From the NCBI GenBank assembly GCA_002841375.1, contig PGZO01000007.1, forward strand, positions 62,001 to 126,000: 64,000 nt of DNA, in the 5' to 3' direction. This document shows, one piece after another, positions 20,148-25,783 of this stretch. The DNA comes from Firmicutes bacterium HGW-Firmicutes-7 (lineage in GTDB: Bacteria; Bacillota; Clostridia; Lachnospirales; Vallitaleaceae). A model generated the notes under the pieces. It made no database searches, was not told the origin of the DNA, and worked only from the letters and a program-made list of their open reading frames with translations. The position numbers were made by a program, and so were the translations under genes. Position 1 is the stretch's first letter; the number at the start of each line of letters is the position of its first letter.

Positions 20148-21002
20148 TTAAAACATTAATTCTGCAGTATATTGCGTACTAGATTTTTCCATTGCATACT
20201 GCTTTTGATTCTTATTCATATAAGCATCATAGGTCGTATCTACAATAATCCACCTGTTTTCACTACTTAGATATATTTCATTCCACGCATGATATACATC
20301 TGTTGTTGTTGATTGACCTTTAATTAGTTTTGTAGGTATGCCTTGGCTTCGTAACATTGAAGCTAAAAGCACGGAATAATCAAAACAAATACCCTTTTTA
20401 TCCTGAAGGATTACATCAATATCAGGTATATAATCAAATGTAAGTCTATCAATTTTCTCATGGTCATAATCAATATTTTTTACAATATAAGTATATAGCG
20501 TATCAATGATTTCTTTTTCTGAAAGCTCATATTGGCTATTTTGAGTTACTGCAATCTTGTCCTTCTTTGCGTCAGCTAACAACTTTTGAGATAATTTAAC
20601 AGCTAAGTTTGTTGCGTCCCATTTAACCTGTTGCGTTGATGCTAGAAAAACACTATTTATGGAATCAATTGTTACATTCCCAGATGCAGAATAAACATTT
20701 TTATATTTTGTACCGGTCGTATTTTCATAAATATTAACTGTATACTTTCCATTACCAAGTTGTAATGGGTAGTTCACATAGTCGATACAATTTGCGATGT
20801 TGTATATGTACGTTTCATCTCCACTTTGTATAACGAGTTTTGATTTAACATTACTTTCAGTATTCAATAGAACCTTGACAATTCCATTGCTGCTATAACT
20901 AAAGTCAACATCATATGCTGACGTATTTCTAGCTAATATATTAACACTTAATATGCCTGCCAATAAAACGATCATAATAAGGTAGCTAATTTTCCTTTTC
21001 AT
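20148..21002 (-). CDS. Exported transglutaminase-like protein under c-di-GMP riboswitch control
   Basis: A secreted protein of 284 aa. A signal peptide or anchor covers residues 1-25. The first half is beta-rich (about 30-130). The second half is a transglutaminase/protease-like core with the Cys-His-Asp triad in GICFDYSVLLASMLRSQG, VYHAWNEIY and WIIVDTTYD. It may crosslink or cleave cell-surface proteins. I use the ATG at 21002, 8 bp after AAGGAG. Its ribosome site directly follows the closing stem of a c-di-GMP-I aptamer, so production should respond to c-di-GMP. A sortase gene lies upstream in the same direction. Confidence 0.85.
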   Translation of the reverse strand: MKRKISYLIMIVLLAGILSVNILARNTSAYDVDFSYSSNGIVKVLLNTESNVKSKLVIQSGDETYIYNIANCIDYVNYPLQLGNGKYTVNIYENTTGTKYKNVYSASGNVTIDSINSVFLASTQQVKWDATNLAVKLSQKLLADAKKDKIAVTQNSQYELSEKEIIDTLYTYIVKNIDYDHEKIDRLTFDYIPDIDVILQDKKGICFDYSVLLASMLRSQGIPTKLIKGQSTTTDVYHAWNEIYLSSENRWIIVDTTYDAYMNKNQKQYAMEKSSTQYTAELMF

Positions 21003-21016
21003 AAGTACCACTCCTT

Positions 21017-21098
21017 CGATAACCGGCTACCCTTCAATAAAGCGAAAGGCCCAATGGTTTTGCGTCCCAATCTTACGATTGGTTTGCCTTTATCGGTA
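21017..21098 (-). promoter_or_regulatory. Cyclic di-GMP-I (GEMM-I) riboswitch, gene-proximal aptamer
   Basis: Minus strand: closing stem CGATAA (5') with TTATCG (3'); GGCAAACC; P2 capped by the GNRA loop GTAA; GGGACGCAAA; P3 CCTTTC/GAAGGG; and GGTAGCC. These are the conserved GEMM-I blocks. The 3' strand of P1 ends at the AAGGAG of the downstream gene, so control of translation initiation is plausible. Confidence 0.93.
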
Positions 21099-21107
21099 AT
21101 GAACGTA

Positions 21108-21198
21108 CAAAAAAACTCCCTTTCGGAGGCTAGGCTGCCATATGAATAGGCCCTGTAGCTTTGCGTCCCAATCTTTCGACTGGTTTGCCATTATCGGT
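21108..21198 (-). promoter_or_regulatory. Cyclic di-GMP-I (GEMM-I) riboswitch, distal aptamer with terminator
   Basis: A second aptamer upstream in tandem: GGCAAACC, P2 with GAAA loop, GGGACGCAAAGC and GGCAGCC. Its 3' end runs into a short GC hairpin (CTCC-GAAAG-GGAG) followed by seven T (about 21111-21127), i.e. a terminator. The P1 partner strand is not obvious, so ligand binding may work through competition with the terminator, or this copy may be weaker. Confidence 0.85.
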
Positions 21199-21310
21199 GA
21201 AAGTACCAAATTTGTATTTATTAAATTGTTATATTCCGTTAATACCGTCATTATATCATAGGTTCTTGCCTTTTACAAGTTCATTTTTCATTATTCTATA
21301 ATTTTCTACG

Positions 21311-22066
21311 CTATTCGTCTTTACTAACAGCATGAATAATAAGTCTACTATCCGGGTTTATTGCTGGATGACAAGTGATAAGTGTCACAACTTTATTATG
21401 AGAACTTCCATTAATTACCGAAGTGTCGTTTGGTTTAACGAAAAGTTTTTCATATACCTCATAATAAACTTTTGTTCCATCTGCCTTTTGTATAGTGATC
21501 TCATCGCCCACATATACCTCGTCTAATCTATTAAAAAAACTACCAAAAGAGTGGCTTCTATGTCCTGCTAATACGGCATTTCCAATTTCACCTAAAAGTG
21601 CTGATTCAGGCATATGACCAATCGAAACCTTTAAGGTTTCAAGGTCCACTCCCTCTGCAATAGGAAGCTTAACATTTATTGAATCAATCGTAATAATACC
21701 TATTGTTTTTGGCATCTTTTTTATGATTGTTTGTTTAATCTGTCCTTCTTCAATATTCTCAGAACTTTCATCTATTTCACTTTGGTTGTGCTGATCTGTT
21801 CCCCACGCAAGTACTTCATCTAATTCGTTAAACGCCTCCACTTGAGTTGTTTCACTATTTTCAATCTCAAGATAAAAACTCTTAATCATTTCTTCCTGCT
21901 TCCTATTCGTAACCATCTTCCCAATAATCGGAATGGCAACAATAATTAAACCTAGTGCAATAAGCAGTGAACTAAGGTATCGTTTTGTATTGTTTCTATT
22001 AGTCGTTTCTTTATTCTCTTCCCTCTTAACTTCTTTATCTTCCATATAAAATACTACGCCCCTCAT
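21311..22066 (-). CDS. Sortase (class D-like)
   Basis: Membrane-anchored cysteine transpeptidase that attaches proteins to the cell wall. A TM segment (LSSLLIALGLIIVAIPII) lies near residues 31-50. The catalytic His is in LAGHRSHSFGSFF, the Cys in VTLITCHP and the Arg in DSRLIIHA. The ATG at 22066 is used; an ATG seven codons in (22045) is also possible. It lies 10 bp after pth and upstream of the riboswitch-controlled transglutaminase; no LPXTG substrate gene was recognised in the window. Confidence 0.9.
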   Translation of the reverse strand: MRGVVFYMEDKEVKREENKETTNRNNTKRYLSSLLIALGLIIVAIPIIGKMVTNRKQEEMIKSFYLEIENSETTQVEAFNELDEVLAWGTDQHNQSEIDESSENIEEGQIKQTIIKKMPKTIGIITIDSINVKLPIAEGVDLETLKVSIGHMPESALLGEIGNAVLAGHRSHSFGSFFNRLDEVYVGDEITIQKADGTKVYYEVYEKLFVKPNDTSVINGSSHNKVVTLITCHPAINPDSRLIIHAVSKDE

Positions 22067-23101: not shown

Positions 23102-23695
23102 ATGTCATTTGATAAAACCATTACCTTCTTCGTCAATGCTGTTCAAGAAAACAAGCTTTTATCAGAAGAAGATATTTGCAAAATGAAGTATGGGATGCAA
23201 GTAACTTCAAATGAAGTTATAAAGATTTTAATATTTCTATTGTTGTTCGGGACTATTAGGAAACTTGATGCTTTTATTTTATCTTTTTTGGTTTTAGCTA
23301 CAGTTCGTAGCTTTGCAGGAGGCCTCCATTTTTATCGCTGGTCAAGTTGCTTTTTGTTTTCACTAGCTTTTTTTATAACAAATATTTTGATACTTCCAAA
23401 TATTGTAGTGATTAACAATAGCCTAGTTTATTACATAGTTGTATTGTTTTCAATAATTATTACATTGTTATTTGCACCTAAGCCTTCAAAGCACCGACCT
23501 GTTACACAAAAAAAATACATCTATAAAGCTAAAGGAACTGCATTCATTGTTACACTTACTTGGCTCCTTGTTTTATTTACATTCTTCAAGTACTCTCAGT
23601 TGTTTTCTATAGGGATATGGACTGTAACCTTACAAAACATCCAATTGATGATATCAGGAGGTCTAAAACATGAAAAAAATGTCAAAATTGTCTAG
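23102..23695 (+). CDS. agrB: AgrB-like autoinducer peptide-processing membrane protease
   Basis: Cleaves and helps cyclise the AgrD precursor. 197 aa with about five to six TM segments. The catalytic pair is visible: His76 in FAGGLHFY and Cys83 in RWSSCF, seven residues apart as in staphylococcal AgrB (H77/C84). It overlaps agrD by 26 bp. Its promoter has two LytTR-like repeats, suggesting positive feedback by the regulator encoded nearby. Confidence 0.93.
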   Translation: MSFDKTITFFVNAVQENKLLSEEDICKMKYGMQVTSNEVIKILIFLLLFGTIRKLDAFILSFLVLATVRSFAGGLHFYRWSSCFLFSLAFFITNILILPNIVVINNSLVYYIVVLFSIIITLLFAPKPSKHRPVTQKKYIYKAKGTAFIVTLTWLLVLFTFFKYSQLFSIGIWTVTLQNIQLMISGGLKHEKNVKIV

Positions 23696-23813
23696 CCAGC
23701 TTATCGCTTCTTTTGCTTTTGTTTTTATTGCAGTTGCTACCGTTACTTCAAGTGCTTATTGTTGGGTCTTTTGGGGAGAAACAGATTGCCCTGCTTGTTT
23801 AAGGAAACACTAA
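23670..23813 (+). CDS. agrD: AgrD-like cyclic thiolactone autoinducer precursor (47 aa)
   Basis: A small gene directly behind AGGAGG (inside the agrB 3' end). The peptide has a basic start (MKKMSKLSSQ), a hydrophobic amphipathic leader (to residue ~26), then SSAYCWVFWGETDCPACLRKH. By comparison with AgrD, Cys31 and the four residues after it (CWVFW) could form the five-residue thiolactone ring, followed by an acidic/Pro tail ending in LRKH. The tail holds an unusual CPAC pair (Cys40, Cys43). The stop overlaps the 3' end of the convergent kinase gene by 15 bp. Confidence 0.88.
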   Translation: MKKMSKLSSQLIASFAFVFIAVATVTSSAYCWVFWGETDCPACLRKH

Positions 23814-25043
23814 TGTAACAGTAATCCACCCAACCGAATTAACGATTTCTATTTTTCCATAATAACTCTCAACTATTTTATTAATATTATACAATCCATA
23901 TCCCCTATTATCACCTTTAGTAGAATATCCTTTTTTTAGAATATTGTTAATCATATCTTGCGATATAGGCAATCCCGTATTGGCTACCTCAATAATCTTA
24001 TGATCAGAATCATTCTTCATCGTAATGGTTATTCTTTTATCTCTGTCACCGCTTACTAAAGCTGCATCTTTTGCATTATCAATTAAATTTCCTATCACCT
24101 CTACCATTTCATAATCTTTTAATGGATATGATGGTAACGGCATATCATAAATAAATTCAAATTCAATGTTCTTACTTTGTAATTCAGAATTTTTACTATA
24201 CAAAAGTGCACTAATAATATTGTTATTCGTATTAAGAAACTTTTCGTTTTTATAAGAAGTCTGCATAACATCCTCAATATAAGTTGCTATTTGAGTATTT
24301 CTATCTAATTCCGCAATACTATATAGCGCTTGAAGATGATTTTTATAATCGTGTTGTTTTGTTTTAACTTCATCAATTAATCTTTCTAGTATAGGATAAT
24401 ACTCATTATAAATTTTGGCTATTTTTCTTCCTTCGTTTATTTTCACTATTTCTAAAAAAAGAATTATAACGATTAAAGTCCATATTATAATTGCTGTAAA
24501 TATTAACGATACATACTGCCAACTATTCGCTTGATTGCTGTCCCAAATTATACTATAAAAAACTACGGGTACCAATAGCACAAACATCAACGTATTGATG
24601 AAGCTTTGTTTTTTCAAATAAAAGACCAGCACCTTATTCAAAGGAAAAATCCTTACTATAAAATAAACAGCTACGATCAAAATGCTGTTTATTATAACGC
24701 CATTAAAAAAAGAGTATGTTGTGTTCTTTACAATTAAGAGTACGACCATTTGACATATTTGAACTGTGGCCAATATCACTATCACAAAAACGTGAAGAAA
24801 CAATCCTTGTAAATAGGGAATCCTCATCAGCACCTTGAACGCAATAACTGCAAATAAAAACCCCCAAAGCATACGCAAGGGTACATTAAAATATCCTACT
24901 AAAGTTCCTTCAATAATCATAAGTGAACTCCATACCATTACCATTTTTGAATCTTTGCTAAACCGCTCATCCGTATTATAAATAACCACGTAGTAAGCCA
25001 CAATTTCTAAAGCTGATAGAATGAACATTTGCCATAACTTCAA
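23799..25043 (-). CDS. AgrC-like sensor histidine kinase (GHKL domain)
   Basis: Probable receptor for the AgrD-derived peptide. 414 aa: six to seven N-terminal TM segments (residues ~1-205), a coiled linker, the H-box KQHDYKNHLQALYSIAELD (phosphoacceptor His near 240), and a GHKL ATPase domain with EVIGNLIDNAKDAA and GYGLYNI. It overlaps the upstream regulator gene by 4 bp (ATGA) and is convergent with agrBD, so peptide genes and receptor are on opposite strands. Confidence 0.9.
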   Translation of the reverse strand: MKLWQMFILSALEIVAYYVVIYNTDERFSKDSKMVMVWSSLMIIEGTLVGYFNVPLRMLWGFLFAVIAFKVLMRIPYLQGLFLHVFVIVILATVQICQMVVLLIVKNTTYSFFNGVIINSILIVAVYFIVRIFPLNKVLVFYLKKQSFINTLMFVLLVPVVFYSIIWDSNQANSWQYVSLIFTAIIIWTLIVIILFLEIVKINEGRKIAKIYNEYYPILERLIDEVKTKQHDYKNHLQALYSIAELDRNTQIATYIEDVMQTSYKNEKFLNTNNNIISALLYSKNSELQSKNIEFEFIYDMPLPSYPLKDYEMVEVIGNLIDNAKDAALVSGDRDKRITITMKNDSDHKIIEVANTGLPISQDMINNILKKGYSTKGDNRGYGLYNINKIVESYYGKIEIVNSVGWITVTLVFP

Positions 25044-25783
25044 TATTTGTCACCCCATTCAAATTTGCTCTTTAGATCTGCTTTGAATGTTTCTCCAATT
25101 AATGCTACTTTGTCATAATCGTCAAATATTACACTACTTGCACATCGATTATTATGTATGATACTTTTAATATAATGAACATTTACAATATATGCTTTAT
25201 GTGACCTAACGAAACAATCTGATTGTAGTAATTGTATTTTACTCATTATCTTTTTTAACGAAGTCTTAATTTCTTTATATACGCCCATCTTAGAATGATA
25301 GTAAACGAATCTACCCTGGGCTTCAATAAAATAAATATCGGATAATAGAATTTTATTCGTTATATTCCCACTCGTAATCGTTAAGTATTTCTTTTTATTT
25401 ATTGTTAGATCTTTTCCAATAATTTTTTCTAGCTTTCTAATAGTCTCTATAATCTTTTCCATTTTAAAGGGCTTCTCAATAAAGTCATAACAATGATAAT
25501 CATGTAAAGCTCTGGGCAAGAGCGTAATATGCGTTGTGATAAAAATAATTGGAGCAAGTTCATATCGTTCTATACTACGAATATTTTGCGCAATATCCAT
25601 TCCGCTAACATCAGGCAATTCTATATCCAATAAAAACATATCAATATAGTTATTTTCTAAAAATTCTATCGCTTTTTTCCCCGTCGCTGCTTCTAATACA
25701 CAACAACCAATAAAATTTTTTTGTATTGTCTTTGTAAGGCTTTTCCTCGTTATATCATTATCTTCAACTACAAGAAAGTTCAT
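25040..25783 (-). CDS. LytTR-family response regulator (AgrA-like)
   Basis: 247 aa. Receiver domain with VVEDND at the start, phosphoacceptor Asp in MFLLDIELPDVSGMD (near 53) and the Lys of EKPFKM (near 103); C-terminal LytTR DNA-binding domain (about 140-240) with YYHSKMGVYKEIKTSLKKIM and FVRSHKAYIVN. It is co-transcribed with the kinase. Likely targets are the paired 9-bp repeats between agrB and the divergent RNA. Confidence 0.92.
   Translation of the reverse strand: MNFLVVEDNDITRKSLTKTIQKNFIGCCVLEAATGKKAIEFLENNYIDMFLLDIELPDVSGMDIAQNIRSIERYELAPIIFITTHITLLPRALHDYHCYDFIEKPFKMEKIIETIRKLEKIIGKDLTINKKKYLTITSGNITNKILLSDIYFIEAQGRFVYYHSKMGVYKEIKTSLKKIMSKIQLLQSDCFVRSHKAYIVNVHYIKSIIHNNRCASSVIFDDYDKVALIGETFKADLKSKFEWGDKY

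Follow-up and report, generated by a model that had tools for sequence, protein, structure and literature searches.

Why would a single gene be headed by two aptamers of the same riboswitch class? This question is raised by a locus on the minus strand of the DNA stretch analysed here (64,000 nucleotides, in the following called the window), where two c-di-GMP-I aptamers precede the gene of a secreted transglutaminase-like enzyme, which we refer to as Tgase.

Two complete aptamers between a sortase gene and Tgase

The elements of the locus follow each other on the minus strand in the order pth, sortase, promoter-like site, aptamer 1, a run of seven U (U7), aptamer 2, ribosome site, Tgase, and mfd. 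Their positions in the window are as follows.

22634-22077, minus strand: pth, before the sortase gene
21311..22066, minus strand: sortase gene (PF04203, E 6e-31), on the same strand as Tgase and upstream of both aptamers
21250..21278, minus strand: promoter-like site TTGTAA-17-TATAAT with TG ahead of the second hexamer (consensus scan)
21199..21204, minus strand: ACUUUC, the 5' strand of the P1 extension of aptamer 1, pairing with 21120-21115
21121..21198, minus strand: aptamer 1, c-di-GMP-I, with G20 (21189), A47 (21162), and C92 (21126); RF03167 61.4 bits, RF01051 63.1 bits
21115..21120, minus strand: GGGAGU, the 3' strand of the P1 extension of aptamer 1 and lower end of the proposed terminator stem
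21109..21115, minus strand: U7 run of the proposed terminator, its first U also paired in the stem
21098..21108, minus strand: GUACGUUCAUU, the 5' strand of the P1 extension of aptamer 2 (predicted fold)
21014..21097, minus strand: aptamer 2, c-di-GMP-I, with G20 (21088), A47, and U92 (21019); RF03167 62.5 bits, RF01051 69.1 bits
21011..21016, minus strand: ribosome site AAGGAG, partly within the lengthened P1 (sequence and pairing probabilities)
20148..21002, minus strand: Tgase, secreted transglutaminase-like enzyme of 284 aa, start codon at 21002 (PF01841, E 7e-19)

A cmscan search identified two complete aptamers of the c-di-GMP-I clan, at 21198-21121 (E 4.7e-12) and 21097-21014 (E 2.3e-12). 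The two GEMM-I aptamers in series that had been proposed in the original prediction, made from the sequence alone, are therefore both complete and significant, and their span is essentially the one claimed. RF01051, the model suggested there for a search, matches them with 63.1 and 69.1 bits against a cut-off of 35. The proximal aptamer also adjoins the ribosome site as anticipated, with AAGGAG located immediately 3' of the P1 bases of aptamer 2. The sortase additionally scores above the cut-off of TIGR01076, a match that does not fix its class.

The two aptamers are separated by 23 nt. This short spacing, together with the promoter-like site upstream of both, suggests that one transcript can carry the two of them. 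The site comes from a consensus scan whose site count is about the same as in shuffled sequences; it is partly retained in the congeneric orthologue, and transcription would be expected to start near 21242. Overall, the genome of the window contains nine c-di-GMP-I aptamers at seven places. A probable Agr-type quorum-sensing locus is found elsewhere in the window (23102-25783), where genes for a GHKL sensor kinase and a LytTR response regulator are located opposite to an AgrB gene and an ORF for a short peptide.

The layout recurs from Clostridia to Paenibacillus

c-di-GMP-I aptamers were present in 38 of the 59 relatives searched. Many genomes of the same family carry tandem or triple aptamers before the Tgase orthologue, with mfd downstream in several. 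A profile scan of genome contigs with an alignment of 24 Tgase members resulted in 80 Tgase loci, which span Clostridia and Bacilli (Petrocella, Vallitalea, Anaerotalea, Alkaliphilus, Geosporobacter, Clostridium, Lutispora, Tissierella, Paenibacillus, Brevibacillus, and others); the window's locus groups near Petrocella and Vallitalea. Within 700 nt upstream of Tgase, two or more aptamers were found at 44 of the 80 loci, one at 23, and none at 13, some of the latter being truncated by contig ends. The same layout is found from Clostridia to Paenibacillus. One related genus (L052, L060, L064, L067, L068) has three c-di-GMP-I aptamers in series before the Tgase orthologue. The first of these looks degenerate, and the orthologue seems to start at a CTG codon.

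Aptamer class and bases in contact with the ligand

On E-value, cmscan ranks RF03167 (c-di-GMP-I-GGC), which we take to be an orphan variant class, first for both aptamers. Both pass the gathering cut-offs of the two models (35 bits for RF01051, 59 bits for RF03167), and both score higher with RF01051 (63.1 and 69.1 bits) than with RF03167 (61.4 and 62.5 bits). We read the GGC of the model name as bases 20, 47, and 92 of its consensus, positions that we mapped from the Rfam alignment. The G47 of this consensus is A47 in both aptamers and in all 111 aptamers located before Tgase homologues (111/111). A47 has been described as conserved across all class I members (PMC9049102). Because G47 is absent and RF01051 gives more bits, we call both aptamers canonical c-di-GMP-I and rejected a c-di-GMP-I-GGC identity. 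That they are c-di-GMP-I-GGC riboswitches for another ligand, as the Rfam label with the best E-value would have it, appears very improbable on these two grounds, even though RF03167 is the model retained by cmscan for both and for the majority of the aptamers ahead of Tgase in other genomes. RF03167 often beats RF01051 by E-value on aptamers with A47 (window 21014-21198; most of the loci L147-L226), and automatic annotation may mislabel such aptamers of Tgase loci as the orphan variant. We infer that the ligand is c-di-GMP.

The ligand contacts G20, A47, and C92 are all found in aptamer 1, and aptamer 2 has G20 and A47 but U92. In known structures, C92 pairs with a guanine of the ligand, and its replacement by U92 in aptamer 2 may weaken binding, tune it, or shift its preference. 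U92 is rare, occurring in only 5 of the 111 aptamers before Tgase homologues (L150 twice, L155, L159, L204), and the congeneric orthologue has C92 at the same position.

This base could mean that the tandem reads two signals, c-di-GMP by aptamer 1 and, by aptamer 2, an adenine-bearing ligand such as cGAMP, or nothing at all if it is a decayed sensor. U92 indeed stands in place of the base that pairs with the ligand guanine, and natural A20, C20, and U92 aptamers are present among the Tgase loci; moreover, a G20A/C92U mutant of Vc2 binds c-di-AMP (PMC7288161, PMC9049102). A typical cGAMP aptamer has A20, however, and not U92, and the C92 of the congeneric orthologue also argues against a second signal, as does a survey of 29 GGDEF hits in which the Ser of cGAMP-making enzymes was not seen. 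We regard the two-signal explanation as quite unlikely. A supply of cGAMP by Hypr GGDEF proteins was rejected on the same survey, in which the readable motifs have Asp and one degenerate copy has Asn; it covered GGDEF proteins only, and one of the 29 is a partial hit off the active-site motif.

Unusual contact bases were also seen in other tandems. In a Petrocella-like genus (L055, L059, L063, L066), the Tgase tandem consists of an A20 aptamer followed by a C20 aptamer, C20 being unusual at a ligand contact. The window's genome contains a second tandem of the same design (L048; G000:C75:45991-46229) before two repeat-rich secreted proteins, with A20, the base linked to cGAMP sensing, in its first aptamer and G20 in its second.

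Lengthened P1 helices lead to the U-run and the ribosome site

According to the original prediction, the distal aptamer leads into a terminator. The U7 run after aptamer 1 agrees with this, but no ordinary terminator hairpin precedes it, and the conserved pairing is the lengthened P1 of aptamer 1 itself. A separate inter-aptamer terminator was rejected, since a terminator scan found none on the minus strand between the aptamers and weak local hairpins are not conserved across loci. The 5' flank of the first aptamer pairs with the bases between P1 and the U-run (ACUUUC with GGGAGU in the window, GCUUUU with GGGAAG in Petrocella, and AAAGC with GCUUU in Paenibacillus), so that P1 continues into a helix ending at the U-run. 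At the last aptamers, the 5' flank pairs with the ribosome site. In the predicted fold of aptamer 2, CAUU pairs with AGUG (21012-21009) and GUAC with GUAC (21008-21005). Of 45 first aptamers, 44 have a run of five or more U no further than 22 nt from P1; the start codon lies 8-26 nt past P1 in 65 of 68 last aptamers.

The match between the two arms was examined by an arm-swap test, which ignores relatedness and pairs each 5' arm with the 3' arms of other loci of the same bacterial class: own arms beat swapped arms at the last aptamers (Z -6.3 in Bacilli, -5.8 in Clostridia) and at the first aptamers in Clostridia (Z -4.3), and 0 of 20,000 swaps reached the own arms in each case. The first aptamers of Bacilli have invariant arms without covariation, for which the swap test is uninformative (Z 0.3). 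Shuffled 5' arms never attained the observed mean pairing, and the P1 extension was found in all 44 first aptamers tested. Folding of the single aptamers was of little help, with z -0.6 for aptamer 1 and z -3.0 for aptamer 2.

A probable OFF switch at two levels

We consider it probable that the two c-di-GMP-I aptamers form a homotypic tandem riboswitch, that each has an expression platform of its own, the first acting on transcription and the second on translation, and that both are OFF switches. OFF is predicted at both levels because of the geometry of the lengthened P1 helices, the matching of their arms, the folds, and the precedent of Vc2, a translational OFF switch in which P1 stability is the key (PMC9262584). 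At high c-di-GMP, the ligand would close P1 of aptamer 1, and P1 extended by ACUUUC/GGGAGU and followed by seven U would form an intrinsic terminator whose loop is the aptamer. RNAs that escape termination would carry aptamer 2, whose closed, lengthened P1 would cover the ribosome site and the start codon region. At low c-di-GMP, P1 would open and Tgase would be made. The original prediction that transcription and translation may both be gated thus gains support from the sequence and the comparison of 80 loci, with the two switches now predicted to be OFF. What we observed directly are the two aptamers, the geometry of U-run and ribosome site, the conserved layout, the arm matching, and the linkage to sortase and adhesin genes described below.

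According to the folding model, the bound-like fold of aptamer 1 is less stable than the free minimum by 3.2 kcal/mol. Ligand binding can make up for such a difference, as a ligand-driven switch requires. The proposed terminator stem is weak (-5.0 kcal/mol), with two G-U pairs and internal mismatches beside P1. For the leader with aptamer 2, the fold prediction places the start codon and the final part of the ribosome site largely in paired regions. This mask is stable in the prediction even without ligand and may be hard to open. U92 of aptamer 2 is expected to weaken c-di-GMP binding and counts against the double-OFF model.

An ON function of aptamer 1 is unlikely. In such a design, a short hairpin formed by the 3' strand of P1 and downstream bases would terminate transcription of the unliganded RNA, and the ligand would capture this strand in P1, allowing polymerase to pass. 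A 4-bp CUCC/GGAG hairpin (-4.5 kcal/mol) does directly precede U7 in the free fold of the window and could act as a terminator of the unliganded RNA, but its stem of only four pairs was not called by the terminator scan, and most of it is missing from the congeneric orthologue, in which the P1 arms are kept. Likewise, 11 of the 44 first aptamers have a local fold of -4 kcal/mol or better before the U-run, whereas 14 of the 44 have no local hairpin at all and yet possess the P1 extension. That c-di-GMP-I ON switches of such design are common in the same genomes also speaks for this possibility. We infer OFF, and not ON, as the direction of both switches, and further information on the sign comes from the neighbouring genes.

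Single aptamers followed by a U-run were also found before a type IV pilus operon (L071, G000:C77:65904-65980; L076, G001:C1:42271-42349), apparently in an OFF design, which is opposite to the situation in C. difficile, where pili are switched on by c-di-GMP. The aptamer at L071 has A20.

Sortase and adhesin genes at the Tgase loci

The sortase gene that had been noted just upstream of the tandem is a kept neighbour: at 35 of the 80 loci, a sortase homologue is encoded directly upstream of Tgase and in the same orientation. The survey gave 37 hits, from which L207 and L217 were excluded because the sortase is downstream there. An LPXTG-type adhesin is encoded upstream at 15 loci (the one at L224 was recognised by eye), and at 11 of these 15 the adhesin has a c-di-GMP riboswitch of its own. 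Seven belong to class I (L175, L177/L236, L182, L186, L190, L215, L224). Their P1 3' strand lies inside a terminator hairpin, which by sequence is a clear ON design. Class II riboswitches precede the adhesins at L164/L235 (two copies plus one of class I), L166, L180/L237, and L189/L238. We count the opposite sign of the ON-type riboswitches on adhesins of the same loci in favour of OFF control of Tgase. With the adhesin riboswitches ON and Tgase OFF, c-di-GMP should raise adhesin and lower Tgase in those genomes.

No LPXTG protein was found in the window's genome (best PF00746 E 0.129; the LPxTGE DNA pattern gave no anchored protein), and the adhesin reading proposed for this genome rests on its relatives. 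The original prediction had linked c-di-GMP to surface modification. The link to the surface is supported by the conserved sortase neighbour, but adhesin turnover seems likelier than a generic modification. In two Clostridium genomes (L237, L238), a single long surface locus carries two aptamers each of c-di-GMP-II and c-di-GMP-I; its genes encode LPXTG adhesins, a sortase, Tgase, and a small secreted protein next to further surface proteins.

Tgase has a predicted transglutaminase-like fold

In agreement with the predicted target, a secreted transglutaminase-like enzyme, a Pfam scan of Tgase returned PF01841 (Transglut_core, E 7e-19) and PF04473 only; NCBIfam provided no name. The protein has an N-terminal helix resembling a signal peptide and a beta domain (predicted model, pLDDT 92.5), and its triad Cys206-His238-Asp255 is invariant among homologues. 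A structure search ranked 3ISR, a putative cysteine protease, at the top, followed by S. pyogenes TglA, animal transglutaminases, TgpA, and LapG (E about 1e-3). LapG was matched by fold alone, since the Pfam scan does not place Tgase in the LapG sequence family.

Sequence and modelled fold do not choose between a protease and a cross-linker. A role as a true transglutaminase, with the surface built up or stiffened at low c-di-GMP, is a real possibility, if somewhat short of an even one, given the Transglut_core domain with Cys-His-Asp and the presence of TglA, TgpA, and animal transglutaminases among the structural matches. The best of these matches is nevertheless a putative cysteine protease, with LapG also among them, and a role in building the adhesive state would fit poorly with the predicted OFF control of Tgase, the neighbouring adhesin being ON in relatives. 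Under the double-OFF model, Tgase would be active when c-di-GMP is low and cells disperse, probably as a processing enzyme of surface proteins.

Discussion

The association between tandem c-di-GMP-I aptamers and COG1305 genes is already known: it is statistically enriched in Bacillota and reported as one table row (PMC12452182, 2025). Aptamer class, tandem arrangement, and gene family are the same as here, but that row comes without the expression platforms and the sortase/adhesin link, both of which are given here. Homotypic c-di-GMP-I tandems are common (347 doublets), and tandems combining transcription and translation are known from SAM-II/SAM-V and some SAM-II pairs (PMC9481103). As proposed for Tgase, the first sensor of SAM-II/SAM-V ends transcription and the second governs translation in response to one ligand, but two aptamer classes are used there and one class twice here. 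Bc3-5 of B. thuringiensis (PMC4759541) also has several complete c-di-GMP-I sensors in series, which are pseudo-cooperative, but all of them are transcriptional and ON, unlike one transcriptional and one translational platform, both predicted to be OFF. The HMP-PP riboswitch (PMC6478431) likewise has its aptamer embedded in a terminator with a shared stem. There, the ligand breaks the terminator (ON), whereas here it is predicted to close it (OFF).

With respect to the enzyme, two systems can be compared. In C. difficile, PPEP-1 and the sortase-anchored adhesins CD2831/CD3246 are under opposite c-di-GMP control (PMC6366702, PMC6447587), with a class I OFF riboswitch on the secreted surface enzyme and an ON riboswitch on the adhesins. 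PPEP-1 is a zinc metalloprotease behind one aptamer, in contrast to Tgase, a predicted cysteine-type enzyme behind two. With regard to a reciprocal circuit of this type, adhesins with a c-di-GMP riboswitch of presumably opposite sign are present at 11 of 15 adhesin-bearing loci of relatives, and none was found in the window's genome. The second system is the Gram-negative adhesin/protease pair LapA/LapG, which is under c-di-GMP (PMC3032545). LapG is a transglutaminase-like cysteine enzyme active at low c-di-GMP and related to Tgase in fold, but it is held by the protein LapD, whereas the expression of Tgase would be held by RNA.

By likeness to PPEP-1/CD2831 and LapG/LapA, Tgase may release adhesins. 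Only tentatively, and with considerable doubt, we propose that it is a cysteine protease that releases adhesins and is gated by riboswitches. It would be a Gram-positive equivalent of LapG, wired by RNA and spread across Clostridia and Bacilli, and c-di-GMP would turn adhesin and sortase on while doubly locking the release enzyme off. Our literature search found no account joining sortase, transglutaminase, c-di-GMP, and riboswitch, which is weak evidence of absence as subscription papers were mostly outside its coverage. Three features appear in none of the accounts that we found and may be new: a homotypic c-di-GMP-I tandem that combines a terminator platform with a ribosome-site platform, an OFF design in which P1 of the aptamer itself is the terminator stem, and the module of adhesin, sortase, and Tgase.

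If true, a single gene would be controlled twice by the same aptamer class, in its transcription and in its translation, and this arrangement would be deeply conserved; the closing helix of the aptamer would itself provide the terminator stem as well as the mask over the ribosome site. The sortase and adhesin genes under opposite c-di-GMP control would provide a testable function for the large uncharacterised family of secreted COG1305 proteins. The release of sortase-anchored adhesins at falling c-di-GMP, for which C. difficile provides a Gram-positive example, could then extend to many lineages that use a different enzyme.
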